IMG/VR virus record: IMGVR_UViG_3300035564_000075
Span: 20,631 to 84,630 of that record
From: a virus
Length of the DNA: 64,000 bases
Reading direction: 5' to 3' (one strand)
Program-made: the position numbers and the translations under genes
Notes under the pieces: generated by a model
What the model was told of the DNA's origin: nothing
The model's input: the letters and a program-made list of their open reading frames with translations, nothing else
The model's database searches: none
In this document: in pieces, positions 11,801 through 63,889 of the stretch
Layout: each line of letters starts with the position of its first letter
Position numbering within the stretch: the stretch's first letter is position 1

Positions 11801-12266
11801 CATGATGTCATCTGCACAGGTGTACAGATATAGGACTCTGGCAACCTCAGATGGCATAGCGTGGGAAGCTGGTGCCGCATTCTGGATGCCATGGATCACC
11901 ACCAATAACAAGAAAGTGATGCAGATGGAAAGAATAAGAGTCTACACAGAGGGCGATGTCGTCATCAATCAGGATGTTGGCTCTGGAGATGTGAAGAAGG
12001 TGTGGTTGACAGATGCGCTCAAGGGTTTGTCTCTCGAAACTGCCAGAGATGATGAAGTCACACACGATGAAGGTACATTTGTCTATCTGCACAGTGGAGA
12101 CAAGGTTATCATCACAAACTTCATGGGTGTTAGCGGAGATCCGGACAATACCGTAGAAGGACTTCTTGCCAAACTATGTATTATCTCAGGTACACAGGCA
12201 TCCTTCCCTGGAGACACAACGCCTGCAAACATTACCCTTGCAAGTGGTGAAGAGGTAACAGTATGA
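8829..12266 (+). CDS. Large tail/baseplate protein
   Basis: 1145 aa, starting in an ATGA overlap. The sequence is rich in aromatic, Gly and Ser/Thr residues with short beta-strand patterns, typical of virion adhesion or baseplate proteins; I see no membrane segment or catalytic signature. Its position behind the tape measure fits a tail-associated protein that may contact the host surface. The coding sequence contains one perfect copy of the 13-bp palindrome at 9633. Confidence 0.75.
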   Translation: MRTVSDAITNVITKETMYKVLPRITAYKSRVYFENADLDDHAPSLPLHSGQIVLPEAVTLSATAHKAITVVVNTGVIKFLIEGDSSPLTPLISSSPIVADYLSRPAWYGNKLYYSNGSGWLETTIDTDKVVARNTACASAPSVWLDGGVAAVHMVGDGQAIYVYIEDGRVNFGYIDSNKDYHDCPGHIFDPVCVLDATVDAGLIHYSTAAKVGNKIFAYFSRYDGAVVGVYYQTEDGINGSWSDFFVAIPEDLSAFDLTNAISVDGNVFLIGRFYRKDQFSADAVYTLLLQSPDGMTFNMDRRSLVTTIDDRFEVFYDSTTKEVGFIAKNKSYRSTAPFWMIGEDAESITIDMDSVSGSVTSGWAVKLKSGEEEYFANELVAEGNFADLYLGVETGVAGDEDDPGFEFVHYHQCVIESVEKGWADGVREMQIKLLPAALWQTQSMTHPFYMEWQGKQYLQAKILTLDNLYAASDSNGQLWSLSQDFWQASNPKAYAVQTHAGQQTTDTWADDLVDSALAVSYPEFGSSATYQMNIYGWSRAGIPSCNPNEADSTPTSTPNDKFYGLLLVEDLDGVEHTIVTTDGELASNPGFPIGDTSHTNPPQTWFGAGVRAGSYPVSYNLSRSTHSILPGWKIKKLGVRVVSDPANATHSTTYYLERVDMPRITVAYSTTSSVGFDAVTVPNTVFTTQKGVAQILFSVSPYSTWNFELSGRFTYIGPYSYVGLIGLATDKDNFVVGYVRSGYLGLARVNQGIRTTIQEVPLAELIEATHVDGSNLIHDGLTVDVRFWHKDGNFGVEYKLPSTVDWPLRGSQLTHTWETADGVIAYEVPVPTLEETGMSTDSTGSYVYHVGIYAIIDPPKFRTTGFRSSGSIAPTKPCDIDPFSGYSQLYRFPHTGKVSCDDIVYNFSSKDVSLSGVSGSSGGYGKNPYDYDPDTLTGQYLPKARGPYLIYNIQDWACCNKDLVGGYHFTGTHAIEFSDFAWLSYDPGSYMMSSAQVYRYRTLATSDGIAWEAGAAFWMPWITTNNKKVMQMERIRVYTEGDVVINQDVGSGDVKKVWLTDALKGLSLETARDDEVTHDEGTFVYLHSGDKVIITNFMGVSGDPDNTVEGLLAKLCIISGTQASFPGDTTPANITLASGEEVTV
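9633..9645. repeat. 13-bp palindrome copy (perfect)
   Basis: TTCCTAATAGGAA in the 8829-12266 gene, coding FLIG. Confidence 0.9.
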
Positions 12267-13234
12267 CCACAAAAAAGGGCGCTGTCTCACTAAGATTTAC
12301 ATATACACCCAGTGATAGTGCTTATCTTCTGGTAAAGACATCCATCATTGGCATACCTGCCTATGAGCTAGATAGTTTTGGCTATCATCTTCTTGACATC
12401 AAGATTGTATCTGATTCAGATGGAAATGACAGGTATTTTTGGATCTCTACACTGCTGAATAGCACACCAGTTGATACAAGCGTTTTCCTGTTCTACAATA
12501 TTCCAACTGCTCAACCGATCGATGTATGGATATATCTATTTGACACCAATGTATCTGTCTACTTCAATGGCAATTGGGTTTATTCTTATGTGATGGCCTT
12601 CTCTGACTATCTATCCTACACACCTACTATTTCAATCAAGGCGGTAGGTGGCAGTATTGCGCTATCCAACATTCGCAGAGAGGAAATACCTGATCAACGT
12701 GATGCAGTGTATGTTGACTACGAATCAACTGGAGACAATGCCATCCAGTCTATCTATCAGCAACGTCCAGTTCTAACATCTCCTGATGTGGAGAATATTA
12801 TGAACTTTACCTATGGCGCTACATTGGATGAAGTGCCTTCGAACTTTGTAAGGCAATACAGCTTGGGAGAAGTAGTGCCAAGTGACCTGTCATCTGATGG
12901 ACTGGTGTACTACTATGACGTTGCTATCTCAGTTTCTGCAGAAGTTGCCAAGGAAGTTGGCTTTATCACCAGACTATACCGCTTGTCTGAATTGAATAGT
13001 GGTGGACAAGAGGCAACCAATAGGATTCAGAAGATTGCATTGGGACACAGACATCCTGTACAACTGGTTCAGCGACTAGATCCAAGGTTGCAACTGTTCG
13101 ATCGCATCATAATAGACCTTGTTGTATCTGGAACTGAAACACACATCACTGATGATATAATTGTTGAAGATATTGACATAAGTACTGTCAATGGAAAATA
13201 CGCCTCAACGATTACAGGAAGAAGGACTACATAA
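12263..13234 (+). CDS. Tail/baseplate protein
   Basis: 323 aa, coupled to its upstream neighbour by an ATGA overlap and to the next gene by TAATG. Beta-rich N-terminal half with aromatic-rich strands (FNGNWVYSYV) and a more mixed C-terminal third. No recognised family. The gene order (tape measure, small protein, two beta-rich proteins, fibre) fits a long-tailed phage baseplate module. Confidence 0.7.
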   Translation: MTTKKGAVSLRFTYTPSDSAYLLVKTSIIGIPAYELDSFGYHLLDIKIVSDSDGNDRYFWISTLLNSTPVDTSVFLFYNIPTAQPIDVWIYLFDTNVSVYFNGNWVYSYVMAFSDYLSYTPTISIKAVGGSIALSNIRREEIPDQRDAVYVDYESTGDNAIQSIYQQRPVLTSPDVENIMNFTYGATLDEVPSNFVRQYSLGEVVPSDLSSDGLVYYYDVAISVSAEVAKEVGFITRLYRLSELNSGGQEATNRIQKIALGHRHPVQLVQRLDPRLQLFDRIIIDLVVSGTETHITDDIIVEDIDISTVNGKYASTITGRRTT

Positions 13235-16200
13235 TGTCAAAACTTGCTGGAAAGATGGTGAAGTTCGGAAAGCAGAAGCAGATCCCCGCAAAGATTATCG
13301 ATGTGCTGGGACCGCTTTGTTCTGTCAAGCTATCTGGTAATGGAGAGAAGCTGACAGGGCTCTCCTATGTTGGACCTACACCAGTCAAGGGACAGAAAGT
13401 TATTGTAAACTACCAGACAGGCACTCCATTTGTGCAGACTGGTAGCACATATGCTGCTGCCGAATATTCAGCACCTGCTACACCATCACCTTCAACATAT
13501 GCAGATGGCACCGATCGTTCTGTCTTTGGTTCAGTACATCTTGATAAGAACGGTATGGGTGTATGGAATGATGACATTCCAACTGGACAGATCTCTACAG
13601 ATGGAGACTCCTTCTTTGGCTCTAACCTGGACTATGCAGACAACACATCTCTTTCTATCTTCACCAATGCACAGTCTTACAATGGTGAGTCAATGGGTGC
13701 TGGCGACCTCCTAGTAGGAAGCAACTCATCTGGTTTCGCTAACGTATTCTGGGATGCATCTGCAAAACAATTGAAGTTCCGTGGTGGCACTACGGTTCAG
13801 GCATATGTTGCCACCGATGGTACGATCGTAGCTGGTGGTGGAAACGTAGTATTGAGCACCACTGGTATCTCTGCATCTGCAGGAACTATTGGTGGCTGGA
13901 CACTTGGTGCTAACTCTCTCTCTGCAACTGGTGCAGTGATCAGTGCGGCAGTACCATCTATCGCTCTAGGTGGTGCAGGCTATCGTACTGGAACGGGATT
14001 CTGGGTAGGAAAGGATGTAGATTCTGTCTTCAAGTTCTTTATTGGAGATTCTGTCATTGCACATAAGCAGTATATGTACTTTGATGGAGTAAACCTTGTC
14101 ATTACTGGTACATACTCTGGAGAAATGGACATCTCTGGAGTTACTTCAAACACGTTTACTATCAACAGTGATCTTACTGATGCAACTGCTCAACTTATCT
14201 TTGGCAGAACAACAGGCGGAAACGCTTCTATCGGTTATGATGGAAATGTCCTTACATCCGATAAGACTATCAATATTGCTACCCTAAACGAGGGCGTTTA
14301 TTATACCCTACAATTGGGCTCAAGCGATGGGACCTATGTTGTTTCCTATGCTGATGATGCTCTCAATAATCTTTGGGTAGGTGGTAACGTAACAACCGTC
14401 TACGGAGATTCAGAACTAAGCCTTCAGAGTGCTGCACAGATCACTCTGTATGGTACATCGGTTTATGCTGGAGAGGGAACACCCTTCAACCTATGGGATG
14501 ATATTATCGTAGGTGATTATGTGTTTTTTGTGGATGTATCTCAGGGAAATGTTGGCTTCAACACTGAACCAGATCCACAGTTTGTAGTTGATATTGGCGG
14601 TAATGCAAGAGTGCAAGGATACCTATCTGCAAAGATGGCTATGACCGTCAAGGATGTCTTGATGATCTGCCACTTCGATGGTCATGAACCATATGCGATC
14701 GATTTCAGTGGAGATCCTGGTGGTCATCGTGGACAAGTTGCTACCGTAGTTGGTGGAGTGCAGTATCGCCCTGGCAAGTTCTACAAAGCTGTGCAATTGG
14801 CTGAAGCAACTACCAATCTGGTACCAAATCCTAACTTGGGAACTAATACAACTGGTTGGCAATGGCAGGTCAATGCACAGGGTAGTGGTTATGGTCGTAT
14901 CACCAATGAGCAGGTACTATATGGAAATACCTGCGGTAAGGCTGTTTGCTCTGGAACTGGTAGTCGTGCAGTAGGAACTAACGGATACTGGACAAGACCC
15001 GCTGGTGCAGACGTCACTATATCAATCTATGTAAAGCCTCTCACCCACCCAATTCTATATACTATGGTAGCCTTCTCTGATAACTGGGCACAAAATCAGG
15101 GAAGCTCACCTGTAACTGTACCTGTTGGTGAATGGACAAGACTTACTCTTTCTATTTCCAATGCTACGTTGAATACTTGGCATAATGGTGGACTGGATCT
15201 GACCTTCTTCCTGATCGACAATAATGATGGAGTAGCTGAAACATGGCTCTTTGGTGCCGCGCAGATGGAAGCTGGCATGCACGCTACTCCATATCAGCCT
15301 TCAGACCTACTTGAAACTAACCATCGTGATGCCAGTCATCTACAGTACTCTCCTGAAGGCAATATCAATCTGGATGCTGGTTCTTTCGGCATGACCTATT
15401 ACAACTTTGGATACCTAAATGACTATCCTTTGGGCTTGTATGTTGTTATCGATAGCAACAACTATATCGCACAGTATTTCAATGCAGTTTCTGGTGGAAC
15501 TCCCTATGTCTACGTCAATTCTGGAGGATCTGGAGTCGTTGCAGGAGAATATGCCCCTCTAAGTATTGGTTGGCACCAACTTATCGCTACTTGGAAAACT
15601 GGAGAGCTATTACTCTATATAGATGGAGAATTGGTTAGCAATGCAGTTTACACGCGTCCTGTTGGTACTCCATCTATCATGTACCTTGGTTATGGAAATG
15701 CCAATGTCTTAATAGACGACTTCTTTACCGTTGATCGTGTCATGGAACCCGATGAGATTCGTGCAGTATATGACAGCGATGCACCTATCTTTGCAGAAAC
15801 TTCTGTATCTGCTTGGCGTAGTTCTCGCCACTATGTCTGGATGGATGATGAGGGCCTTTGGGCTCAACATCCAGATGGATCAAATGTATTTGCCATTTCA
15901 ACCTCAGATGGTAAAAGCTACTCTGGCGGAACAATGGATTGGGGCGATCTACTAATTGGTACTGAAGTATCCGGTATATACTGGGACTACTCTGAAGCCA
16001 AAATACAGATGTGGGAAGCTCAGCTTTCGCTATCCGGAGAAACGGGTAGCATTTCAATCGGTGACGATCCTCCTGTGTCCTGTGTTGATGGTACAGGTTT
16101 GTGGATAGACAAAGATGGTATCTATGGTCTAAGCAAGACAGGTGCAGTAACAACCCTTGAAGCTAAATTTGACGCTATAACTGGCAAGATCATGGCTGGT

Positions 16201-20971: not shown

Positions 20972-21352
20972 TTATTGGTTTCTAGGATCGTCCAGATTGG
21001 TATTCAGCTTACGGTAGCCAGTACCGACGCTTACTGCACCAATTGCAGTGATCAGTTCAATAAGCATATCCTGCGTGATTGGGAAGTTTGGTGCATAAGC
21101 ATGCACGAATACAAATGCCAAGCTCACTAGCAAGATATAGAACCTAGGCGCAGATAGAATGTCTATATAGGACGGAACATTGCCCACGGATGCGCTTGCG
21201 ATAAAGGCAATCAATGCCACAACTGCGGCAATGACATCACCCTGGCTGAATGGCAACACCGGAAAGAATGCTTTGATTCCAATGAATACCATTGCCAGCG
21301 CAAGTGCAATGACACGTGGGGAAGTAAGGATAGCGTACAATTTTTGGTTCAT
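20972..21352 (-). CDS. Four-span membrane protein with internal duplication (holin candidate)
   Basis: 126 aa with about four hydrophobic spans. The two halves align: SPRVIALALAMVF...FFPVLPFSQGDVIA and APRFYILLVSLAF...YAPNFPITQDMLIE, so it arose by duplication of a two-span unit. Size and topology fit a holin-like protein, but it is transcribed opposite to the endolysin. SD AGGAG sits inside a palindrome copy, behind the strongest promoter in the window. Confidence 0.75.
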   Translation of the reverse strand: MNQKLYAILTSPRVIALALAMVFIGIKAFFPVLPFSQGDVIAAVVALIAFIASASVGNVPSYIDILSAPRFYILLVSLAFVFVHAYAPNFPITQDMLIELITAIGAVSVGTGYRKLNTNLDDPRNQ

Positions 21353-21393: not shown

Positions 21394-21423
21394 ATTATAC
21401 TACCTTTCTAGCAGGTGTGTCAA
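21394..21423 (-). promoter_or_regulatory. Consensus sigma70 promoter
   Basis: TTGACA (21418-21423) and TATAAT (21394-21399), both perfect, 18-base spacer. Predicted start about 21387, giving a 35-base leader holding the palindrome and SD of the gene ending at 20972. Confidence 0.85.
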
Positions 21424-21970: not shown

Positions 21971-22171
21971 CTAATCTCCTACATCCAGCATGGATGCAAA
22001 ATATATCTTGGCTTCGAACCCCAGTCGCCCTAGGGTTTCCGACAGTTCAATTGCCTTTTTCAGATCAAAACGAACTGCCTGTTTGATATTGCTTGTCAAT
22101 TCGGGAGTGTTGTCCTGGATCTCAAGAAGAAACCCAGGACCACTCTCGATAAAGTAAGTAGGAATCTCCAC
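21971..22171 (-). CDS. Small unknown protein, GTG start
   Basis: 66 aa. The longer upstream frame lies inside the exonuclease gene; a GTG at 22171 overlaps that gene's TAG (TAGTG) and has GAGGA 4 bases ahead, so coupled reinitiation is the best start. Mixed alpha/beta, no motif. Confidence 0.6.
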   Translation of the reverse strand: MEIPTYFIESGPGFLLEIQDNTPELTSNIKQAVRFDLKKAIELSETLGRLGFEAKIYFASMLDVGD

Positions 22172-23109
22172 TAGTTCCTCAACAGTACTTCCTTCTTCTC
22201 TTTCTCTAGGTTGCCAACACGTGCTCTGGTGTAGGCACCACAATTACCACAATGGTATGAATCGAAACGGTTTGCAGGAGTGTAATAGTATCCATCGGCA
22301 GTGACGTTTGCAGAACCACAGTTATTGCACACTGGAATAATCTCATCAGTGTACAGTCCAAGGTTCGGATGACCTTTCATCCATGGTCGTATGGTCAGAT
22401 AGATCTCTTCCAGCAACGTGACATCATACTTATTGTACTTCAGCATTTCATCTAGTGCAGCTTTGTCACCATTGTCACAGCGTTTCCAAAGATCAAAGTC
22501 GGTTTTGATTTTATGGTCACTCAATAGCATCATGGCAAGGAATTCCTGCTTGTTGCTATCGAAGCCAAAGAGTTTCTTGGCAGTGTCCAGCGTATCTATT
22601 ACCTGCGATGGCTTAGGTGGATTGAAGCCATGCACTAGGAAGCGTGAGTTCATCTTCTTGATGTCAAAGCCATTGATATTGTGCCCAATGACTATATCGG
22701 AACCATTCATAATCTCCCAAAGACTCTGTGATATTCTGCCATCATCTCTTTCGATGGCTTCTTCTGGAGTCATTATATCGCTCTTCATCTTGGAACTAAA
22801 CAGTGTTTTGGCAGACCATGAGAGCATGGCAGTGGGCTCAATGATCTGTCCCACGCTCATGTTTATGTCCCATGGAGTCCAGACATAGCCAATGATGGGC
22901 AATGTTTCAATGTCCAGCAAGGTGATTATGGGGAACCTGCGTTCATCTACAAACTTATCTTGGTGTTTAGCATACTCTCTTCTAAATGCACTTCGTAGTT
23001 CTTCTGGTGTCATGCCGTACTTCTGTGCTAGCTCAGGCCAGAACGGTCTTCCGTCCTGTAGAGCCATCTGCTTTCGTGCTAGGCAATCCTTGAAGATGTT
23101 TGAATTCAT
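22171..23109 (-). CDS. DnaQ/RNase H-like 3'-5' exonuclease with C-terminal zinc ribbon
   Basis: 312 aa from the ATG at 23109 (SD GGAG); the longer frame overlaps its neighbour. LDIETLP (Asp66, Glu68), SDIVIGHNINGFDI (residues 137-150) and KYNKYDVTLLEEIY (Asp229) match Exo I, II and III of DEDD exonucleases. A CxxCG...CGNCG pair near residues 265-295 forms a zinc ribbon. It could be a separate proofreading or repair nuclease; no DNA polymerase is recognised in the window. Confidence 0.8.
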   Translation of the reverse strand: MNSNIFKDCLARKQMALQDGRPFWPELAQKYGMTPEELRSAFRREYAKHQDKFVDERRFPIITLLDIETLPIIGYVWTPWDINMSVGQIIEPTAMLSWSAKTLFSSKMKSDIMTPEEAIERDDGRISQSLWEIMNGSDIVIGHNINGFDIKKMNSRFLVHGFNPPKPSQVIDTLDTAKKLFGFDSNKQEFLAMMLLSDHKIKTDFDLWKRCDNGDKAALDEMLKYNKYDVTLLEEIYLTIRPWMKGHPNLGLYTDEIIPVCNNCGSANVTADGYYYTPANRFDSYHCGNCGAYTRARVGNLEKEKKEVLLRN

Positions 23110-23117
23110 GTTTTCTC

Positions 23118-23507
23118 CTAACCAGCTTGTATGTTTAGTAGATAAGCAAAACGGGGATCGTGTACGATAGGATCTTCGTACCACGTGCCCCATACCAAGA
23201 TAGCTGGTTTGCTTGGTAGATGCTCAATAATCTCTAGCTGTGATATACTCTGCAATCTGATTATGTCTTCATCTACCGACTTGTGCAGGGCGCTAGCTAT
23301 CTCTTGGAACTCTTCATATGTACCAGTAACAACAAACAGCATGTCCCTATGCATCCATAGGTTGCCAGGGACCCAACTGAACATACTACCATCCTTCTTA
23401 TTCAGGTCAGCGACCAGTGATTCCCATGCATCACACTTGGGATCTGCACAGTGCCTTACTTGCCTGTCAAACACTGAATAGACCAGTCTCCAGTCATGTT
23501 CATGCAT
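23118..23507 (-). CDS. Unknown protein
   Basis: 129 aa from the ATG at 23507, which overlaps the upstream stop; the TTG nine bases earlier is less likely. N-terminal HCADPKCDAWES could hold a metal with His/Cys. No recognised family. Sits between UDG-like and exonuclease genes in a probable DNA-repair group. Confidence 0.7.
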   Translation of the reverse strand: MHEHDWRLVYSVFDRQVRHCADPKCDAWESLVADLNKKDGSMFSWVPGNLWMHRDMLFVVTGTYEEFQEIASALHKSVDEDIIRLQSISQLEIIEHLPSKPAILVWGTWYEDPIVHDPRFAYLLNIQAG

Positions 23508-23892
23508 ACTCTGCAAGCCTCTCTCTTATTGCCTTGGTATCAGCCTTAGACAATGTTCTCGAAGCTGGATGCGGTGCAGCTATGTATGGATATGGTATTT
23601 GATCTAGCCCCGATTGTGCTACCTTGCCACACGCAAGCACCACACTGGGCTTGTGACTGACGATTTCCTTCAGCATAAACACTGGTTCTGGTGGAAACTT
23701 GTCATTGGGATGTGTGCCTACCTGAGTAGTAGATTCTGTAATGTAGACCTCTGCACCATCTGGTATCATTTCCTTCAGTCGTCTACCAGTTACAGAGCGC
23801 CACAACAGTCTCTCCCACACTCTCCTGTTGGTTATCCTATACGGATCTATCCCATTAGGAATGTAGGCATTTTGTAGGAAGATAAGTATCAT
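23500..23892 (-). CDS. UDG-superfamily-like protein
   Basis: 130 aa, shorter than typical uracil-DNA glycosylases. The middle has VVLACGKVA, the strand ending in GxxA seen in UDG folds, and residues 105-112 give AAPHPASR, matching the C-terminal HP(S/A) motif. The usual catalytic GxDPG near the N terminus is absent (QNAYIPNG instead), so activity is doubtful. The neighbouring radical-SAM gene supports a DNA-repair setting. Confidence 0.6.
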   Translation of the reverse strand: MILIFLQNAYIPNGIDPYRITNRRVWERLLWRSVTGRRLKEMIPDGAEVYITESTTQVGTHPNDKFPPEPVFMLKEIVSHKPSVVLACGKVAQSGLDQIPYPYIAAPHPASRTLSKADTKAIRERLAEYA

Positions 23893-24692
23893 CGTTCCAT
23901 CTCTTTTCGTAATGCATCCTTGATATAGAAAAGCTTTGTATCTCCCCTTGCCTGTTTACCATCATCAGGATTCATTATACGGCTGTAACCAAGACCCTCA
24001 AGTTTCTTGATTGCATCATTGCCAAATTTTTTCCAGTCTATGGTTCTTTCTATATCAGGATTGTGATTCAGTTTTCCTACCTTGAAATGATCTACCCATG
24101 GTGCTGTCAGTTCTATCATGTAGAGTGTCTGATTAGGGTCTATGACTGGTTCCATAGATACCCATGTAGGAATACCCTTGTCATGGAATGCTTTGAGTGT
24201 GTCAAAGCGTTCTTGTGGAGAGGCGGCATTGGGTTCCCAACGTTGCGAATCCTTATCAGTAGCGAATACCAGTGTGATTGCATAGGCATCTTTGGGTCCA
24301 AACATATCCAGATCCTTTAGTGCTCTCTTGCCGCCCTTACTTAGGATGGCTACAGAGAAGCCATGCTCATGCAATATCCTGATTGTATCATGTGTGTACT
24401 GGTAAGCATCTTCTAGTGCCTGATAGGGATCGGTGGTGAAGCATAGATGCACCTGTCCTGTCTTACCAACGCTTTGCAAATAGGCAGCTTCTTTCTCCAG
24501 CTTGCCTAGGAAGTCAAAGTTGCGCGGTCCGGCATGGGAGAATGCAGTCTTCCTATCTGGTTGTCCCCTCATTACTACATCGGGTCCAAAACAGTATAGG
24601 CAACCATGCAAACAACCACGGTAGATATTACATGCTAGTGCAGCATATTCTCTTGCAGCCCCCCTGGGCTCATACAGCAACGTCGTTTCCAT
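23889..24692 (-). CDS. Radical SAM protein, spore-photoproduct-lyase-like
   Basis: 267 aa, SD AAGGAG. NIYRGCLHGCLYC gives Cys27-x3-Cys31-x2-Cys34, the radical SAM 4Fe-4S motif, then a TIM-barrel pattern with CFTTDPYQ, SVAILSKGG and VSMEPVID. This arrangement matches the SPL-like family common in phages, some members of which repair UV thymine adducts; the substrate here is unknown. Overlaps the UDG-like gene by 4 bases. Confidence 0.8.
   Translation of the reverse strand: METTLLYEPRGAAREYAALACNIYRGCLHGCLYCFGPDVVMRGQPDRKTAFSHAGPRNFDFLGKLEKEAAYLQSVGKTGQVHLCFTTDPYQALEDAYQYTHDTIRILHEHGFSVAILSKGGKRALKDLDMFGPKDAYAITLVFATDKDSQRWEPNAASPQERFDTLKAFHDKGIPTWVSMEPVIDPNQTLYMIELTAPWVDHFKVGKLNHNPDIERTIDWKKFGNDAIKKLEGLGYSRIMNPDDGKQARGDTKLFYIKDALRKEMER
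23974..24001 (-). promoter_or_regulatory. Possible internal promoter
   Basis: TATAAT (reverse of 23974-23979) with TTGAGG at 23996-24001, 16-base spacer, inside the radical-SAM gene and upstream of the UDG-like gene. The -35 is partial; could be chance. Confidence 0.35.
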
Positions 24693-24870
24693 CTTGTACT
24701 CCTTGAATTCTAGGTTGGCGGTAAATTACTTCCCACAACCATTCATGCTTCTTTCCATTCAACTGCAGACCATATTTCTCTTTGATATAGTTATCTATAC
24801 CTTCTGCTGTTGTTGATTCTGGAAACCATATAGATGGCATTTCTGCGTGTGTGGTGATCTTTATACGCAT
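24670..24870 (-). CDS. Small unknown protein
   Basis: 66 aa from the ATG at 24870 (SD GAGG); the longer frame runs into the neighbour. Ends 23 bases inside the radical-SAM gene. Trp-rich C-terminal half, no motif known. Confidence 0.65.
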   Translation of the reverse strand: MRIKITTHAEMPSIWFPESTTAEGIDNYIKEKYGLQLNGKKHEWLWEVIYRQPRIQGVQDGNDVAV

Positions 24871-24871
24871 A

Positions 24872-25222
24872 TTACCTCGGGAAGGTCTGTAGGGCGCTCC
24901 AGTGGTCGTTCTGCAGCGGATACCAGTCATCTGTGAAGAACATGGTCATAATTATCTCTACTGCACCCTCTCTGGTCAAGTTGACAGCACGATCGATGTC
25001 AGTCTTGCCATCCTGTAAAGCCTTCTGTCTACACTTCAGAATGAAACCATCAGCAATGACATCCATTGTAGCTCTTGTTTCTGGCGTTAGCGTATTATAG
25101 GTATCCATAATCGCCTTTCGCCTCGCTTGCTGATACAGGCTGGAGCTATACTCCATTTCAAGGATTGCATTGTGCGCATGAGTGAATGTCTTGCCACGGT
25201 GAGCAGCATCTTTAGATCCCAT
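24872..25222 (-). CDS. Unknown helical protein
   Basis: 116 aa, SD GGAG. Largely helical with an acidic, Trp-containing C terminus. Lies just downstream of the 25.24-kb hairpin, so its expression depends on read-through or a promoter I did not find. Confidence 0.7.
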   Translation of the reverse strand: MGSKDAAHRGKTFTHAHNAILEMEYSSSLYQQARRKAIMDTYNTLTPETRATMDVIADGFILKCRQKALQDGKTDIDRAVNLTREGAVEIIMTMFFTDDWYPLQNDHWSALQTFPR

Positions 25223-25237
25223 TTTGTCTCCATAGTA

Positions 25238-25261
25238 GGGGCTGGCCTTTCGACCAGCCCC
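25238..25261 (-). terminator. GC-rich hairpin (attenuator or terminator)
   Basis: 8-bp stem GGGGCTGG/CCAGCCCC with an 8-base loop, between the stop at 25270 and the next start at 25222. No T-run follows leftward; a short one follows rightward. Probably partial termination or 3' end protection. Confidence 0.6.
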
Positions 25262-25269
25262 ATTTTGAA

Positions 25270-26043
25270 TTAGCTTGCACCATCAACAATGTGATACCAG
25301 CCACGGATAAATTTCTTCACTTCCTCATGGTTTTCGAGCATGTACTTGGGAGCAAACTCATCGCCCATGGCGGTCTTGATTTGCTCGGGAGTAAACTCAC
25401 CCTCCAGTTCCTTGACAAGGCGCATCTTACCTTCATGCAAAGAAGGATCTGTAGCAGGTGCCTTAGCTTGAGCAGGCTTCTGTGTAGCTTCTGCTTTCTT
25501 AGCAGGCTCTGCCTTAGTAGCAGGTACAACGGCGGGACCCTCATCGGTTACTTCCTCTCCAGGAGTAGGTTCGTAACCTGCCAGTTGCATAATCCAAGAG
25601 AAACCCAGTCGGAATGCTTTGCCAGTAGCTCGGGTGATTGCCATGGAACGCACTGCATAATCGGCAGCACTTGCCCAATGACTTTCCTTGCGAGTGCAGA
25701 TAGCAGATGAACCACCTATCTTCATGCCATCGCTTGCGCGAATAAGATCCACATAGGCTTCCCAACCACCCTCTATGGGGAGTACACGGTTCTCTACTGG
25801 CAAGATGCCCAACATAGCACCCAGTGTATTCCAGCCTTCCACGAATACATACTTCTTTTCCTTGATTTGCTTGAACAGCTTCTTGGTGTCAATGATCTTA
25901 CCCAACTCGGTTGCTATTGCACTAGCACGTGCTACAATCTCCTGCGGCTTGGTAGGAATAGCACCCAACATAACATCATCATGTACCAAAACAATCTCAC
26001 CCTCAACGTGCTCAACAGGGGTACCAGTCTCAGCAATACTCAT
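25270..26043 (-). CDS. Possible single-strand annealing / recombination protein
   Basis: 257 aa, SD AAAGGAG. Residues about 60-165 contain YVFVEGWNTLGAMLGI...CTRKESHW...YAVRSMAITRATGKAFR and LAGYEPTP, a conserved-looking core resembling phage proteins found near recombination genes. An Ala/Lys/Pro linker (170-200) leads to a C-terminal helical domain. The layout of conserved core, low-complexity linker and small tail resembles annealing proteins (RecT/ERF/Rad52-like), but I cannot name the family. Confidence 0.6.
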   Translation of the reverse strand: MSIAETGTPVEHVEGEIVLVHDDVMLGAIPTKPQEIVARASAIATELGKIIDTKKLFKQIKEKKYVFVEGWNTLGAMLGILPVENRVLPIEGGWEAYVDLIRASDGMKIGGSSAICTRKESHWASAADYAVRSMAITRATGKAFRLGFSWIMQLAGYEPTPGEEVTDEGPAVVPATKAEPAKKAEATQKPAQAKAPATDPSLHEGKMRLVKELEGEFTPEQIKTAMGDEFAPKYMLENHEEVKKFIRGWYHIVDGAS

Positions 26044-26044
26044 T

Positions 26045-26467
26045 TTATATCTCCTTTAGGCCAAGGGCCTCGAATCTCTGAAGTGCTTCTTTGCCAACTG
26101 TAGGCCAGATAGCAGACATCCTTTGCAACCAATTGTGTACAGGTTCATACCTTTCCCATCCGACTAAATATGTTGCGGCTTGCCTAAAGGCTTCATCCCC
26201 ACCAATGCCACCAGTATGTTTGCATGTCAGTGTATTGTGATGCCTTATCACGCAATTATATCTGGAGTTTATCAAGTCACCATCACGTAGCCCTCTTACA
26301 TGCCCCTTACTGATAAGAGCTTCATGCATATCTGCATCAGCCATAAGAACTGGCATTCCACAGAATGGACACAGTGGTGCAAATGCACGCACTTCTGGTT
26401 TATAGACAGAGCGAGTGCCGTATATGTCACTCTTTAAGAGTTGTCGAGAGTTCACGGATAAGCCCAT
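26045..26467 (-). CDS. HNH-like protein with zinc motif
   Basis: 140 aa from the ATG at 26467 (SD AAGGAGG); a longer frame would begin upstream of the predicted transcript start. CPFCG near the N terminus, then HEALISKG, INSRYNCVIRHHNTL and CKHTGG follow the His-Asn-His spacing of HNH endonucleases. Could be a homing-type or structural nuclease. Own promoter upstream. Confidence 0.65.
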   Translation of the reverse strand: MGLSVNSRQLLKSDIYGTRSVYKPEVRAFAPLCPFCGMPVLMADADMHEALISKGHVRGLRDGDLINSRYNCVIRHHNTLTCKHTGGIGGDEAFRQAATYLVGWERYEPVHNWLQRMSAIWPTVGKEALQRFEALGLKEI

Positions 26468-26753
26468 CAGACTTGCCTCCTTGGATCTGGTCAATTATCA
26501 CACTAACCTGCTTTTTTGTCAACTGTTTTGAGCTACCAATATCCTTGCCAGATAGCACTCTCAGGATACCTATTCTCAGATAACGCATAGTCTTGGTCTT
26601 GTTCTTCGCAAGCACCAGCATAGGAGCAAGCGCATCACCAATAAGCATGTTCATCAAGAGAAGCTGTTTGTCAGACGGTTCTTGGAATCTGTCATCTCCT
26701 GCTGATAGCCTTCGTATAGCTTCAATCAGTTGCTGAAGTCTCAGGGATCTCAT
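26427..26753 (-). CDS. Unknown helical protein
   Basis: 108 aa, SD AAGGAG. Basic, Leu-rich helices, no motif. Overlaps the regulator-like gene upstream by 32 bases and the HNH-like gene downstream by 41; the next gene's promoter lies inside its 3' end. Confidence 0.7.
   Translation of the reverse strand: MRSLRLQQLIEAIRRLSAGDDRFQEPSDKQLLLMNMLIGDALAPMLVLAKNKTKTMRYLRIGILRVLSGKDIGSSKQLTKKQVSVIIDQIQGGKSDGLIRELSTTLKE
26494..26522 (-). promoter_or_regulatory. Sigma70 promoter for the HNH-like gene
   Basis: TTGACA (26517-26522), 17-base spacer, GATAAT (26494-26499). Predicted start near 26487, 20 bases before the SD-supported ATG at 26467. Confidence 0.75.
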
Positions 26754-26991
26754 AGTCTAGACTCCTTAGTTTGTCTAATCCCTTCTCGGTAAGTCTCCAA
26801 TAACCCTTCTTGTTCTTGGTTATTGGCTCAATAAAACCTTTATTACGCACCAGCACCAGACCTTGCTGGACAGTACCGATAGACTTCCCCAGTCTATCAG
26901 CCATCTGTCTGTAGCTAAGTCCCTCATATAGAGACCACATTAGCTCTTCATCACGCCTTGCATCCTCCTTGATCCTGATTTGAACGGTCAT
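26722..26991 (-). CDS. Winged-helix/HTH regulator-like protein
   Basis: 89 aa, SD AGGAG. LSYRQMADRLGKSIGTVQQGLVLVRNKG is a helix-turn-helix, followed by a wing-like GYWRLTEKGLDKL, as in small MarR/PadR-like DNA-binding proteins. It likely binds DNA as a dimer; targets unknown. First of a coupled pair with the gene at 26753. Confidence 0.75.
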   Translation of the reverse strand: MTVQIRIKEDARRDEELMWSLYEGLSYRQMADRLGKSIGTVQQGLVLVRNKGFIEPITKNKKGYWRLTEKGLDKLRSLDYEIPETSATD

Positions 26992-26999
26992 AGTTTCTC

Positions 27000-27356
27000 C
27001 TACTGCACCTTGCCTCTTCCGAGTAAGGCCAGTTGTTGGATTCTAGTTTCATGGTTGATTACACCTTGCACACGCAGTTCTTCGATCGTGTGCGCCCAGA
27101 CAACTTCTCCAGGCAATACCGATAGCGCAGCACTATACTCGGGGCTATCCAGAGCACCCACTACGCCATACATAGTGAAGAGATTGACACCATTTACCAG
27201 AGTGCGCATCATAACCCAACTGATTTCACTATCTTTAGGAAAGTTTGTTTCTGGCATATGTAGCATTTTACCTGCTTTCTGATGAATCTGCAAGCCCCAG
27301 TCTATGAGCCTGCTGGATATGTTCACAAGTTTCATACCAATAAAAGTCTTGAACAT
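27000..27356 (-). CDS. Unknown protein
   Basis: 118 aa, SD AAGGA; start overlaps the upstream stop as TAATG. Amphipathic helices, moderately hydrophobic (VNLFTMYGVVGAL), no clear membrane span. No family recognised. Confidence 0.7.
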   Translation of the reverse strand: MFKTFIGMKLVNISSRLIDWGLQIHQKAGKMLHMPETNFPKDSEISWVMMRTLVNGVNLFTMYGVVGALDSPEYSAALSVLPGEVVWAHTIEELRVQGVINHETRIQQLALLGRGKVQ

Positions 27357-27925
27357 TATCTGTCCTTGGGAAGGTGCCTAAGCTGTCCCATCGATCGGGC
27401 AATAGCTATCTTTGATTTGAAGAACTCCGTTAGGTTTTCCTCTACGTGTAAGGCTGTTGCAAGTATACCAGCACCATTCACTCTATTGAACTTGAAGTCA
27501 GGATTTACTTGTTTCGCATCTGGATGCTGTGTAGCATTGTAAAGCTGGAATATCTTGGCACGTAGGAATACTTCAGCAGGATCGTTTCTGGTGGAATCTT
27601 CCATCGTGAACATTGGATACACCTGCTGTACATACTGGAACACAGCGCCCATAGGATGGGTTGCAAAGCCAATGGCAGTAATGATTGCCGCCCTTGCATC
27701 ATCCAGATTGTCAGTAGCAGTAAAGGCAAAGGATGCTTTGATTGCACCCTGTGTACCCTTGGGGCGTATCATCCACTTACATGCAAAATTAGGTGGTTGA
27801 GAAAGTTCTACGTGAATCTCAATCTTGTCATACTCCAGCTTGATAAAATCAAGACAGTCCTTTACAACCTGCTCTATCTTATCTTCATAGGGTTTCAAGT
27901 CAATAATCGTTTCACCGTCACTCAT
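27356..27925 (-). CDS. Unknown protein
   Basis: 189 aa. Alpha/beta, with an acidic N terminus and a long helical middle. No recognised motif. Followed within one base by the next coding region, so part of the replication-side operon. Confidence 0.75.
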   Translation of the reverse strand: MSDGETIIDLKPYEDKIEQVVKDCLDFIKLEYDKIEIHVELSQPPNFACKWMIRPKGTQGAIKASFAFTATDNLDDARAAIITAIGFATHPMGAVFQYVQQVYPMFTMEDSTRNDPAEVFLRAKIFQLYNATQHPDAKQVNPDFKFNRVNGAGILATALHVEENLTEFFKSKIAIARSMGQLRHLPKDR

Positions 27926-27926
27926 A

Positions 27927-28319
27927 TTAGCCTCGCTTCATCTTCTTTGTTTGTACTAGATAAATAATCGCTTGTTCAAGTAGTTCAATATCATCATGGA
28001 AATTTCCCAGTCCAACATTGCAGTTGTGACAAAGCAAGCCCCTAATGATTCCATCCTCATGGTTATGATCTACAAATAGATGTTCTCTAGATTCAATTTG
28101 ATGCTCTCCACATATTGCACACCTTCCTTCTTGTTCTTCAAAAAGTCTGTTATATTCTTCTGAAGAAATTCCATATGTACCTTTAAGATACCTTTCTCTA
28201 TTTCTGTCTGGGGTACGAGATTTATTGTTCCATCTCTTGAATCTATCTTTGTTCTCCTTATAATATCTTCTTGCATTTACTCTTCTCTTTGCAAGAACTT
28301 CTTCATGTGTTTGCCTCAT
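27927..28319 (-). CDS. Recombination endonuclease VII-like HNH nuclease
   Basis: 130 aa. CAICG (Cys67, Cys70), LFVDHNHEDG (residues 81-90), RGLLCHNCN (Cys97, Cys100) and NVGLGNF are the zinc and His-Me-finger signature of T4 endonuclease VII relatives, which resolve branched DNA before packaging. A basic N-terminal helix of about 45 residues precedes it. Confidence 0.88.
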   Translation of the reverse strand: MRQTHEEVLAKRRVNARRYYKENKDRFKRWNNKSRTPDRNRERYLKGTYGISSEEYNRLFEEQEGRCAICGEHQIESREHLFVDHNHEDGIIRGLLCHNCNVGLGNFHDDIELLEQAIIYLVQTKKMKRG

Positions 28320-28327
28320 AATAACTC

Positions 28328-29227
28328 CTATTGACGCAATTCAGGTTGAGTATTTCTAATTGCTTCGTCTTCTTTAGAGGTTCCAATTAAGCTCAGATCC
28401 AGGATAGGCATGTCTTTGATAAGGGAATGCGCACCATTGAATGCAAGGGTGATTGTCTGTCCACCTACCCATACACGACCAGGAAGAATGTGAATGTCGA
28501 TAGAGCCTTCCACTTCTTCCTTACGAACATGGTCTACTGTAGGTACAATTTCCAATGCACCATCGCAATCTTTATATACAGTTCTACTGCCATGCGCCTT
28601 ACCCTGCTCGTTCATCTGGTAAACCACGATGAATGTGCGCTTCTTACCGGCATTGGCAGCAGCGTTTCTGCCAGCAATAAACTTTCTGGAGATAGACTCC
28701 AGCCTTGTAGATTCATTGATTTGCCTAGAGTTATCAGTCATCAGTTGCAAGTAATCGATGATGGTAAATCTGGCATCGTCTTCATTGGCCTTGGCAATTA
28801 TCTGGTCAGCAGTGTTTACCGCATCTTCAATCCAAAGGTCAGTACTGCGTAGCATCTTCTGGCTTTGTTCCAAGTCCTTGAATTGTGGTTCATATAGTGA
28901 CAAGTCTCTAATCATTGTGCGGTCTGCCAGCTTAGTACCATGCACCAATGCTCTGGTGCCCATGCTAGCCTTGATTTCTTCCAGTTGGAAGTAATCAGTT
29001 CTGCCATGGGTACCCAGTACCATAGCCAAGTGCATAGCAAAGGTGGTCTTAGCAGACTTGTGGGGTCCACCTATTACATAATAGGCATTGTCCAGTATGC
29101 CACCAATGCGACGATCGAGGTCCCGAAGGTTGGTCTTGATAGGACGATATTCTTCAGGGTGCTCCATCTGCCTCTTCCAGAGTTCTATATTCTGTGCAGC
29201 GATTTCGTCTATTCGTTGGATAGTCAT
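28328..29227 (-). CDS. DnaB-like replicative helicase (RecA-fold domain)
   Basis: 299 aa. Walker A GGPHKSAKTT (residues 53-62), Walker B FTIIDYLQLM, and a QMNEQGK segment as in motif H3 with a later basic DNA-binding part. It lacks the N-terminal primase-interaction domain of cellular DnaB, like several short phage helicases. Unwinds the fork with ATP. It overlaps the loader gene by 4 bases, so the two are coupled. Confidence 0.88.
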   Translation of the reverse strand: MTIQRIDEIAAQNIELWKRQMEHPEEYRPIKTNLRDLDRRIGGILDNAYYVIGGPHKSAKTTFAMHLAMVLGTHGRTDYFQLEEIKASMGTRALVHGTKLADRTMIRDLSLYEPQFKDLEQSQKMLRSTDLWIEDAVNTADQIIAKANEDDARFTIIDYLQLMTDNSRQINESTRLESISRKFIAGRNAAANAGKKRTFIVVYQMNEQGKAHGSRTVYKDCDGALEIVPTVDHVRKEEVEGSIDIHILPGRVWVGGQTITLAFNGAHSLIKDMPILDLSLIGTSKEDEAIRNTQPELRQ

Positions 29228-30018
29228 ACGTTTAGAGTCCTTTGTGCATCAGGTAGGCGATAGTCAGCACCGTCAACCATAAAGCGTCGGCAGATTGTAC
29301 GATCACCAATTCGGCTTGCAATTCTTCTTATTGCAATGTCGGGGCTATTGAATACCCCAACATCATTACTGGTAATCACAGTAGGGAATTCGGCGCTATT
29401 GAGATAGCGATTGTCTATTACAGCAGCCAATGCATCTGTACTCATACTGGATTGATGTTCCAACCCCCAGTCATCCAGTAGTAAGATAGGCACCTTGGAC
29501 ACGAATTCCACATACTCTTCATAGCTACCGTCTTTCAAGCCACCAAACACTCTGGATTGAAAGTCAGCAACAGATACATAGAAGGCCATCTTAGGCATAG
29601 CAGTTTTGATAGAGCGCAAGATATGTGTCTTGCCAGTACCATTACCACCGAACATAGAGATCCATGTATTAGGTTGCTTCATCCATCTTTCAATGAAGTC
29701 CAACATCTTGGCAAACTCCAACCATTGTGCATCATAGATCTTCTGCCTAGATGGAGTCTTAGATGTGAGTGGTCCGAGATCCTTTAGATAGGCAGGCTTC
29801 AGTGGATATTCATACTGCTTGAAAGATTCTTCTTGCCTATCCATCCATTGTAGAGTAGAGCACAGGCAGTACATTCCATTCTCCAGAATCTTCCAACCCT
29901 GGCAAATAGGACATACATCTTCGGTAGAAGTGTAATCCAGTTCTATGCCTTTGTATTTCTCTGGAGATGCCAATCTTTGTAGCACCCAGTAGTTATAGGA
30001 TAGCATGCGAGATGGCAT
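29224..30018 (-). CDS. DnaC/DnaI-like helicase loader ATPase
   Basis: 264 aa. N-terminal zinc ribbon (Cys36, Cys39, Cys51, Cys53), then an AAA+ core: Walker A GGNGTGKT (124-131), Walker B ILLLDDWG, sensor-1 TSND, and an Arg-rich finger segment IRRIASRI. It would load the adjacent helicase onto single-stranded DNA. Confidence 0.88.
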   Translation of the reverse strand: MPSRMLSYNYWVLQRLASPEKYKGIELDYTSTEDVCPICQGWKILENGMYCLCSTLQWMDRQEESFKQYEYPLKPAYLKDLGPLTSKTPSRQKIYDAQWLEFAKMLDFIERWMKQPNTWISMFGGNGTGKTHILRSIKTAMPKMAFYVSVADFQSRVFGGLKDGSYEEYVEFVSKVPILLLDDWGLEHQSSMSTDALAAVIDNRYLNSAEFPTVITSNDVGVFNSPDIAIRRIASRIGDRTICRRFMVDGADYRLPDAQRTLNV

Positions 30019-39055: not shown

Positions 39056-39235
39056 TTATAAGTCCAGTTCATCCAGAACATGCAAATCATGTTCCATGGG
39101 AACTGATACCTCATCACCGTCTGGAGTATATCCCACAATCTCACCGTTGTCAATATGATCAACAGTGAATGGAACATTTCCATCAGACTCAATAACTATG
39201 TCACCTTCATTGGGCAATGCGCCATCCAAGTTCAT
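39056..39235 (-). CDS. Small acidic protein (59 aa)
   Basis: ATG at 39235 overlaps the ParB-like stop (TAATG), with SD AGGAGG; stop followed by the next gene's SD. Asp/Glu-rich beta protein (GDIVIESDGN, GEIVGYTPDGDEV). Fills the gap between two larger genes. Confidence 0.75.
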   Translation of the reverse strand: MNLDGALPNEGDIVIESDGNVPFTVDHIDNGEIVGYTPDGDEVSVPMEHDLHVLDELDL

Positions 39236-40017
39236 TATTCCTCCTGTGCAAGAAGTTTGTCAATATGAGCCTTGCCTCTCATAACAGCTTGTTCTGGATC
39301 GCTCGTTATTAGAATCTCACGAATTTCCATTAAATCATCTCGTGTGAAGATCCTGCGTGGATTGCCAGGACCCGAGAATGACATAGTTACAGCAGTTGCT
39401 TCTGCCTGTGTCAAGCGATGATGTGCCATAACCATGTCCATGGTCAGTTTCTTCTTGGGGCTCTGCTCCATCTCGATCTTGCATTCTGCCTGAACTGGCG
39501 TAGATAGCTTGCCAACCTCTTTGGCAACATTTACAACCATATTGCCCTGTTGGATAGCAACAAGTGCCCAGTCCGGAACTCTGGCAAAGTCCATATCCAG
39601 CTTTTTCACGTAAGTAACGGAAGTGCCAATAAGTTTCGAAATTACTGTGTAATTCTTTCCCGCTAATAGCAGCTTTTTCACAGCTTGATAGTCAGAGACA
39701 GGATTTGCACTGGATTGAGCATTTTCAACCAGTGTGATCCAACCACCATCCTCTTCATCACCCTTGAGAATGCGAACATCAATATTTCCACTGGAACGAC
39801 CATCTTCTTTCAATTGTCGCACTGCTAGCAATCTCCGTCTGCCAGCTTCCAGATGAAATATCCCAAGATCATCCATCCTGACTATAATTGGGTTCAGTTG
39901 CCGAATTGCCATAGTGTCAACAAAGCCCTTATCAGGTTTTTGCCGATTTATATCACTATTTTTGGGCAAGCGGTTATCATCACAATCCCATACTTGGTCG
40001 TCAACCCATGTAAGCAT
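39235..40017 (-). CDS. ParB/Srx-fold nuclease/CTPase-like protein
   Basis: 260 aa. EAGRRRLLAVRQL (58-69) is the GxRR box of ParB-N domains and TLVENAQSSAN (95-105) the ENxxR-type box, with Ser where Arg is usual. NYTVISKLIGTSVTYVKKL is the HTH of the central DNA-binding domain. No ParA gene is seen nearby. It may spread on DNA, act as a regulator, or recognise the dispersed palindrome; the last is speculation. Confidence 0.8.
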   Translation of the reverse strand: MLTWVDDQVWDCDDNRLPKNSDINRQKPDKGFVDTMAIRQLNPIIVRMDDLGIFHLEAGRRRLLAVRQLKEDGRSSGNIDVRILKGDEEDGGWITLVENAQSSANPVSDYQAVKKLLLAGKNYTVISKLIGTSVTYVKKLDMDFARVPDWALVAIQQGNMVVNVAKEVGKLSTPVQAECKIEMEQSPKKKLTMDMVMAHHRLTQAEATAVTMSFSGPGNPRRIFTRDDLMEIREILITSDPEQAVMRGKAHIDKLLAQEE

Positions 40018-45389: not shown

Positions 45390-45737
45390 TCACTCCTCTG
45401 TCTTGGTGAATTTGATTTCACCAGTACGGACAAACAAAGTGCGATCAATCGATATTCTCATTGGAGTACCAGTCAATTTGAAAAATTCATCCCATTCATC
45501 TATAAAATCAAACAGTTTCTTCATATATCTTTTAGTGTATGGTTTTTCTCCATCAAGTAAACCGCCATTCTCATCAGCAAAGAAGGCAGTTCCCATCCCC
45601 ATAACAAACTCTTCCATATTTAGATGCTTTCTTAGTATATGACGAGCCATGTCCTCAACTATTTCCAGGGCAAGTTCGTCAGCTTCGTTGTACTTTTTCT
45701 CTAGAATCAGGGTCTTTCGATAAATATCCTTGTCCAT
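45390..45737 (-). CDS. Unknown protein, first gene left of divergent promoter
   Basis: 115 aa, SD AAGGAG. Helical N terminus, FVMGMGTAFFADENGG middle. It is the first leftward gene after the shared palindromic promoter. Confidence 0.75.
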   Translation of the reverse strand: MDKDIYRKTLILEKKYNEADELALEIVEDMARHILRKHLNMEEFVMGMGTAFFADENGGLLDGEKPYTKRYMKKLFDFIDEWDEFFKLTGTPMRISIDRTLFVRTGEIKFTKTEE

Positions 45738-45753
45738 GATGCTCCTTTTTCTG

Positions 45754-45769
45754 GGGTATAATTATACCC
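45754..45769. promoter_or_regulatory. Palindromic divergent promoter/operator
   Basis: GGGTATAATTATACCC is a perfect 16-bp palindrome whose two strands each carry TATAAT. Rightward, initiation would fall at the ATG at 45770; leftward, about 20 bases before the start at 45737. No good -35 is visible, so an activator or non-host polymerase may be needed. Confidence 0.65.
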
Positions 45770-46252
45770 ATGGACACAGAACTAATCAAAATAAGTCTCA
45801 TGCAAGTATACTACACTATGGCTATTGAAGGAATGTCCAAGAGAGAAGCCTGCGAAAAGCTAGGTATCAATTGGTCAACCTTCATGTATTGGCAATCAGA
45901 GCACCCTGAAGTATACAGAGAATTCTCCGATCGACAAACAGAACTTCTGAAGATAAATGCTGTACAACTGCAAACAGCACATCAGGAAGTTCTAAATAAA
46001 CTAGTCGCACAAGCCAGTGTAGTTACCAATCTATCTGACATTCTCGCCTTGGAGTCTAGATTGCGTGTACTATCCGCTGAAGCTAAACTAAACTCTGGCG
46101 AGGATAGTGCACAGCAAAAGGCTGCTGCCAACTTCTTGACTGGTATACACCAAGTTCCTGGCATATCCAAGATCACTCGAACAACCGAAACAGTTGAATT
46201 TGGTGCTGACGAGAATACCATAGATGGTGAAGTGAAAGAACTTGACAAGTAA
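45770..46252 (+). CDS. HTH protein, lone rightward gene, probably leaderless
   Basis: 160 aa. GMSKREACEKLGINWSTFMYWQSEHPEVYREF is a homeodomain-like HTH as in small terminase subunits and phage regulators; the rest is helical with an acidic tail. There is no SD, and the ATG directly follows the palindromic -10, implying a leaderless mRNA as for lambda cI from PRM. Either an autoregulated control protein or a terminase small subunit. Confidence 0.8.
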   Translation: MDTELIKISLMQVYYTMAIEGMSKREACEKLGINWSTFMYWQSEHPEVYREFSDRQTELLKINAVQLQTAHQEVLNKLVAQASVVTNLSDILALESRLRVLSAEAKLNSGEDSAQQKAAANFLTGIHQVPGISKITRTTETVEFGADENTIDGEVKELDK

Positions 46253-46516
46253 CTACGGCTTGCCAATTACTTTCTTTTGTGCATCAGAGATCTGGAAATG
46301 CATATCCAGTTGTGTCTTTAGCTCCAAGATGGCACCTTCTGCAGTATCATCATGGCAAGTGACTGAACCAATGTAAGGACCATGCTCATTGCGAAATTCT
46401 GCAGTGGCATCAAATCCTTCGGTATGATCACTTGACTGTAGAATAACCTGAAAGACAGATGGATAGTATTCTTCAGATGCAACAATCTCTCTCATAGTGC
46501 GGGAAATGTCGAACAT
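46253..46516 (-). CDS. Unknown protein
   Basis: 87 aa from the ATG at 46516 (SD AAGGAG). Its end abuts the stop of the convergent HTH gene with no visible terminator between. Beta-rich, unknown. Confidence 0.7.
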   Translation of the reverse strand: MFDISRTMREIVASEEYYPSVFQVILQSSDHTEGFDATAEFRNEHGPYIGSVTCHDDTAEGAILELKTQLDMHFQISDAQKKVIGKP

Positions 46517-46990: not shown

Positions 46991-47701
46991 TTATTCGTCA
47001 AAAAGGTTGTCAAGGATATGGCTGGAGAATACTTCAATTTCAGTCATAAAGGCATCAAAGCTATACTCTTTTTCTCCATCCTCCATCAACTTATCGGTCA
47101 GTGTCTTCAAAAATAGTATGTCTATTCCCATCAATTGACCACGCAGATCCCTGAAACTGGTCATCTTGAGATTGTTGATTGATAATGCCAACTTGATAAT
47201 CTCAAGACCAGGAATAGTATACCCCTTTTTGATATATTTGCGTAGTCGGAATAGGGATGAGATTGGATACTTTCCAGCAGTATTGTAATACAGTTCTTTC
47301 CTTGCAATATGCTCAACAAAGTTTTCGTGCAGCACAAAGGTCATACCCTCGAAGTCATATGCACCCATGCAGATTGTATAATCAAATTGATCTATAACCT
47401 GCTGTGCACTACCAGATATAAGACTGGTTGATATAACTTGTACCTTGACACCATCTTTGGTGTATGTCTTAGCAGAATCAGATTTATATGACAATTCGTA
47501 ATCCAATTTCTCTATACCAGCAATGAATGTTTCTTCATCGATAGCTTTTCCAAAGAATACATCATAATCAGATATATACTCATTGGCGAAGATAGCTCGT
47601 ACTGCACCACCGGCTATGATGGCATGATTTGCAATAAGTAAGTCATATATTCCAGCCTTCTTCAGGTCTACCAGGAATAGATACTCTTGTTTACTATACA
47701 T
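46991..47701 (-). CDS. Nucleotidyltransferase-superfamily protein
   Basis: 236 aa, SD AAAGGAA. IIAGGAVRAIFANEYISDYDVFF matches the pol-beta-type GG...DxD core (Asp45, Asp47) of CCA-adding-like and other phage nucleotidyltransferases; a third acid may lie in the following strands. The C-terminal half is helical. The nucleotide acceptor is unknown; tRNA or protein are options. Confidence 0.75.
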   Translation of the reverse strand: MYSKQEYLFLVDLKKAGIYDLLIANHAIIAGGAVRAIFANEYISDYDVFFGKAIDEETFIAGIEKLDYELSYKSDSAKTYTKDGVKVQVISTSLISGSAQQVIDQFDYTICMGAYDFEGMTFVLHENFVEHIARKELYYNTAGKYPISSLFRLRKYIKKGYTIPGLEIIKLALSINNLKMTSFRDLRGQLMGIDILFLKTLTDKLMEDGEKEYSFDAFMTEIEVFSSHILDNLFDE

Positions 47702-63423: not shown

Positions 63424-63799
63424 AGAACAAAAATCCTGGAGAGGATTAGTCTCCAGGATCAAGGTCAAGCATGGTAAGATTTATGTAGATGCATACCTGT
63501 GGGCTTCACAGGATGCGCTGCAAGAGAACGTGTTGACAGACAACGAGTATCTGGTAGCATGCTATCTGCCAATTCCTATTAGGAATTGTGACGAAGGTAC
63601 TTTTGGTGAATTCAATTTTTGTCTTGATGAATTGGGATTCAAAACTGTTGCGCATGAACTTACTCATTTTATCATAGACCTAAAGAGAATGCAATGCTTC
63701 GAGGATGAGGATACTGCAGAATTCGTAGGAGAATTGGCAGAGAGATTGACTCAGGAATTTCTTTCCAAGACCTTGACAGATCCAGAAGAATATGTATAA
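63410..63799 (+). CDS. Zincin-like putative metalloprotease
   Basis: 129 aa. TVAHELTHFIID (HELTH at 82-86) is the HExxH zinc motif; Glu residues in EDTAEFVGEL may give the third ligand. Small, without propeptide or signal. Palindrome copy at 63573 codes IPIRN. Function not known; could process a phage or host protein. Confidence 0.7.
   Translation: MIEYREQKSWRGLVSRIKVKHGKIYVDAYLWASQDALQENVLTDNEYLVACYLPIPIRNCDEGTFGEFNFCLDELGFKTVAHELTHFIIDLKRMQCFEDEDTAEFVGELAERLTQEFLSKTLTDPEEYV
63573..63585. repeat. 13-bp palindrome copy (perfect, extends to 19 bp)
   Basis: CAATTCCTATTAGGAATTG (63570-63588), the longest copy, inside the zincin-like gene. Confidence 0.9.
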
Positions 63800-63800
63800 T
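63773..63800 (+). promoter_or_regulatory. Consensus promoter for tRNA
   Basis: TTGACA (63773-63778), 16-base spacer, TATAAT (63795-63800). Start near 63807, six bases before the tRNA. Confidence 0.8.
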
Positions 63801-63812
63801 AGGGTTACACAT

Positions 63813-63889
63813 GGAGTTTGTAGCTCAGTGGCCTAGAGCGCCTGTCTGTGGAACAGGGATCGTGAGTCCGAATCTCCCCAATCTCCCCA
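63813..63889 (+). tRNA. tRNA-His (GTG)
   Basis: Cloverleaf with extra G at -1 paired to C73, encoded CCA, D stem GCTC/GAGC, anticodon stem CCTGT/ACAGG with loop CTGTGGA. One mismatch each in acceptor (T-T) and T stem (T-C), and TCCGAAT instead of TTCGAAT in the T loop. Confidence 0.85.

Follow-up and report, generated by a model that had tools for sequence, protein, structure and literature searches.

The locus described here lies in a 64,000-nucleotide stretch of viral DNA (the window; positions 20631-84630 in a virus record of 84,630 bases), in which two back-to-back genes are separated by only 32 bp between their start codons (Table 1). This gap holds a perfect 16-bp palindrome whose 3' edge abuts the ATG at 45770, the start of the rightward gene P0001. 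The original prediction had noted the palindrome and a pair of divergent -10 boxes within it, and both were confirmed: TATAAT is present on each strand, and the two boxes overlap.

Table 1. Features of the divergent locus, with positions in the window.
Feature	Position	Strand	Comment
Leftward gene, 115 aa	45390..45737	-	codon score 37.9 bits; weak match to phrog_15407 (function unknown)
Shine-Dalgarno AAGGAG of the leftward gene	45742..45747	-	4 nt from ATG 45737
Perfect 16-bp palindrome GGGTATAATTATACCC	45754..45769		shared core of the divergent -10 elements
Rightward -10 TATAAT	45757..45762	+	7 nt before ATG 45770
Leftward -10 TATAAT	45761..45766	-	2-bp overlap with the rightward -10
P0001, 160 aa, TerS-like HTH protein	45770..46252	+	codon score 27.4 bits; no usable Shine-Dalgarno
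Leftward -35 TTGATT	45784..45789	-	17 bp from the -10; within the rightward coding sequence
Weak terminator-like hairpin	46292..46309	+	40 nt past the P0001 stop, in the 3'-terminal part of the adjacent leftward gene

This is the sole perfect palindrome of at least 16 bp in the entire record. TATAATTATA occurs once in the window, and a search of the window allowing up to 3 mismatches returned no further copies of the palindrome. Given the base composition, 1.4 palindromes of 16 bp are expected by chance in the whole record, and about 72% of simulated records contain at least one; the expected number centred within the 32-bp gap is 5e-4. The size of the palindrome is unremarkable genome-wide, but its placement in the gap is very unlikely. 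At the RNA level, a hairpin at the start was no more stable than those of shuffled sequences (z=-0.78), and no Rfam families were found between 40 and 50 kb. The first 8 bases, CATGGACA, are identical in both divergent genes (45731-45738 and 45769-45776) and form an outer inverted repeat, off-centre relative to the palindrome and paired in the RNA fold, which is probably due to chance.

P0001 stands out by its orientation. Using a codon score trained on the phage's own long ORFs, with P0001 excluded and a threshold of 12, it is the sole plus-strand ORF above threshold between 20972 and 62632, and by codon usage the earlier observation of a single rightward gene in a leftward stretch of 41 kb stands. 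Two rightward ORFs in the training set (31012 and 60021) are probably spurious, and both score below threshold. P0001 occupies exactly the room left by its leftward neighbours; it ends at 46252, and the next leftward gene ends at 46253. The terminator-like hairpin beyond its stop is a weak candidate, since 17 such sites were found and 13 are expected in shuffles. Elsewhere in the window, replication genes occupy 22171-30018 (a DNA polymerase exonuclease subunit, phrog_403; a DnaB-like helicase; a DnaC-like loader), a ParB-like partition protein is encoded at 39235-40017 in the leftward block, and a nucleotidyltransferase-like protein at 46991-47701 has relatives in several phage families without an assigned function (phrog_18122, E=1e-40).

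That the product of the 45770 gene is an HTH protein, as first proposed, is supported by its sequence. In a single-sequence model, the HTH spans approximately residues 18-58 and is followed by long helices of low confidence and a disordered tail; residues 1-50 are modelled with a pLDDT of 87-95 per block. The top PHROG match is phrog_4102, a terminase small subunit (TerS) family (E=0.0012), and the weaker matches, phrog_309 and phrog_1482, are also TerS, while the Pfam domains HTH_28, HTH_23 and PF13022 all score below their cut-offs. Across the record, P0001 alone matches phrog_4102 and PF13022. Aligned by hhalign to ten phage TerS proteins, it gives a probability of 91% over residues 16-49, compared with 0.4% for the ORF before the terminase large subunit (TerL), 2% for a Crp-type HTH and 0.2% for the phage's ParB-like protein; a genuine divergent TerS reaches 98% over 98 columns. 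The alignment is confined to residues 16-49 and does not extend to the oligomerisation/C-terminal region. By these profile comparisons, the N-terminal HTH of P0001 is closer to terminase small subunits than the tested controls are, and the remainder of the protein has no such match. In a structure search with the single-sequence model, nothing reached E<=0.001; TerS proteins lead the viral matches (E=0.04 and 0.1) and 2ao9 (phBC6A51) ranks seventh among the PDB matches, which is suggestive only.

The likeness to phage TerS (phrog_4102, phrog_309 and the phBC6A51-type homeodomain PF13022, PDB 2ao9) consists of an N-terminal HTH followed by W...HPE and of the long helices predicted after it. In contrast to those proteins, P0001 matches in the HTH only, which makes its identification as TerS moderate, and it is solitary, inverted within a leftward block and not adjacent to TerL: in record coordinates, TerL is at 11296-12996, the portal at 13111-14865 and P0001 at 66400-66882, approximately 53 kb from TerL. 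A TerS gene usually, although not universally, lies beside that of the large subunit. The 96-aa ORF before TerL was considered as the true TerS and rejected, as it has no TerS similarity. The original prediction had named a terminase small subunit with its large subunit elsewhere as the outcome that would count against it, and this is nearly what we find: the HTH is TerS-like and TerL lies elsewhere, but the match covers the HTH alone. Among viral contigs, GTDB genomes and phage and plasmid records, we found nothing closer to P0001 than the weak TerS match; a match in MT838097, to a Crp-type regulator, was set aside as chance. Relatives of the neighbouring genes were sought to compare the conservation of the gap, and none were found. 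The only close relative of the phage found is a 4.6-kb viral contig, IMGVR_UViG_3300050030_000039, with 81-83% identical TerL and portal, a fragment that stops short of the P0001 region.

On the leftward side, the elements read as an ordinary sigma70-type promoter with a standard ribosome site. TTGATT-17-TATAAT agrees at 10/12 positions with the sigma70-type consensus, which may not be that of the host, and similar or better promoters precede other leftward genes (21423, 30495, 31925 and 39153). Promoters in the window that agree at 12/12 positions include two: TTGACA-18-TATAAT (21394-21423) reads leftward before gene 20972-21352, the last of the leftward block, adjoining the rightward block at its convergent end, and TTGACA-16-TATAAT (63773-63800) directly precedes a tRNA-His gene (63814-63889).

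The rightward side is different, because it has a -10 only. The best -35 hexamer at a spacing of 14-20 nt agrees at 3/6 positions, the TGn of an extended -10 is absent, and no rightward sigma70-like promoter scoring 9/12 was found from 44001 to the ATG at 45770. What is unusual is the position of the box. Of the 2908 ATGs in the window, 3 (~0.1%) are preceded at 6-8 nt by an exact TATAAT; two of these are intragenic, leaving 45770 as the sole gene start; when the distance is widened to 5-9 nt, P0001 is alone among the 65 genes tested. Counting any candidate start codon early in the ORF, 63/65 genes have a Shine-Dalgarno of at least 4 nt, and 52 have one at the first start codon listed. P0001 counts among the 63 only through a TAAG at an internal ATG; its own ATG has TAA only. 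Starting internally would truncate the HTH domain, since residues 3-20 form its first helix (pLDDT 87-89 in the single-sequence model), and this modelled helix favours the start at 45770. The exact TATAAT at leaderless spacing and the missing Shine-Dalgarno make a leaderless mRNA the best reading, and the P0001 transcript probably starts at the AUG itself, as had been proposed. It is established that lambda cI mRNA is leaderless and that 70S ribosomes initiate at 5'-terminal AUGs (PMC4965119).

Taken together, we consider it reasonably likely that the site is a compact bidirectional promoter for the host sigma70-type RNA polymerase, with a leaderless gene for a TerS-like HTH protein as its rightward arm. 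RNA polymerase would read one symmetric -10 core either way, occupying it in a single orientation at any moment. For the leftward arm, the -35 lies at the optimal distance of 17 bp, and the transcript would carry a leader with a Shine-Dalgarno for the gene at 45737 and would probably serve further genes downstream. In the other direction, the mRNA would start at the AUG or within one base of it and give the terminase-small-subunit-like protein, which may act in packaging. As only a -10 serves this arm, its output is expected to be lower or to require assistance.

A -10 lacking both a -35 and TGn may even be inactive, and this is the basis of a competing explanation that we consider rather unlikely: only the leftward promoter would function, the rightward -10 would be a by-product of the TATAATTATA symmetry, and P0001 would depend on another promoter, such as a late phage one with an unrecognised sequence. 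The 1.4 perfect palindromes expected per record fit this explanation, as does the fact that packaging proteins are usually expressed late. However, a longer leader would leave P0001 without a ribosome site, though nearly all genes here have one; the stretch from 44001 offers no rightward sigma70-like promoter in its place; and a TATAAT at this distance precedes only ~0.1% of ATGs.

The original prediction went further and suggested a self-controlled switch, which our data do not bear out: the halves are unequal, with a -35 leftward only, just one operator-like site is present, and we found no integrase or HTH_3 repressor. Since the symmetry exceeds the 10 bp of the overlapping TATAAT pair by 3 bp on each side, simple autorepression is conceivable. 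P0001 or another dimeric protein would bind GGGTATA/TATACCC, cover both -10s and repress both genes. The extra symmetry has a chance of ~1.6% (p=0.252 per pair) and the HTH of P0001 is modelled confidently, but the HTH resembles that of a packaging protein and, unlike the operators of multi-operator switches, the site stands alone in the window at up to 3 mismatches. In addition, the exact palindrome is present in 7 other viral contigs and followed by ATG in none (0/7); lacking this ATG and any common context, we attribute these occurrences to chance. All considered, an operator role for the palindrome seems improbable. It is tempting to speculate that the early region expresses a TerS-like protein from a leaderless mRNA and that this protein binds the palindrome of its own promoter, linking packaging to the shut-off of the leftward unit, an idea that we regard as very improbable.

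The comparison with lambda deserves mention here, because cI resembles P0001 as an HTH gene with no Shine-Dalgarno and a -10 close enough for the mRNA to begin at the AUG. A bistable lysis-lysogeny switch of the lambda type, in which P0001 would be a repressor activating its own promoter, would account for the divergent layout, for an HTH gene that is probably leaderless and for the lack of a good -35 in the rightward promoter, which lambda PRM shares. In contrast to lambda, however, the P0001 locus has one palindrome copy in the window and not several operators, no partner repressor or lysogeny genes were found, and the protein resembles TerS and not CI. Integrase, serine recombinase/resolvase and HTH_3 domains (PF00589, PF00239 and PF01381) gave no match in the record, which may be incomplete. 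Such a switch is extremely improbable.

The proposed bidirectional promoter, by its sequence, fits a known class. Symmetric -10 elements drive divergent transcription of 19% of E. coli RNAs, with 18 bp as the commonest distance between start sites and a T at -18 (PMC12825309; PMC10268837). Here, the nearest-A starts would be 45770 (+) and 45752 (-), 18 bp apart and with a T at -18 on both strands, a fit that requires long discriminators, since strict standard spacing from both -10s predicts starts 15 bp apart. The tested E. coli promoters had so little basal output that the directions competed only when one was strongly activated (PMC12825309), so mutual exclusion of the two directions should not be assumed. 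If confirmed, this would add to the symmetric bidirectional promoters a natural phage case of unusual clarity, with a full TATAAT on each strand, and its one leadered and one leaderless arm would allow the competition of RNA polymerase between orientations to be probed. If not, an uncharacterised phage would simply have a promoter of ordinary anatomy. As summarised in PMC12825309 and PMC10268837, the symmetric bacterial promoters (Warman et al. 2021, cited in the former) have a common -10 read on both strands, divergent starts 7-25 bp apart and flanking elements, such as a -35, that set direction. The phage site likewise has a -10 readable on both strands, predicted starts 15-18 bp apart and a -35 on the leftward side only, and it differs from that general description in carrying the full consensus TATAAT on each strand and in having one transcript that is predicted to be leaderless.
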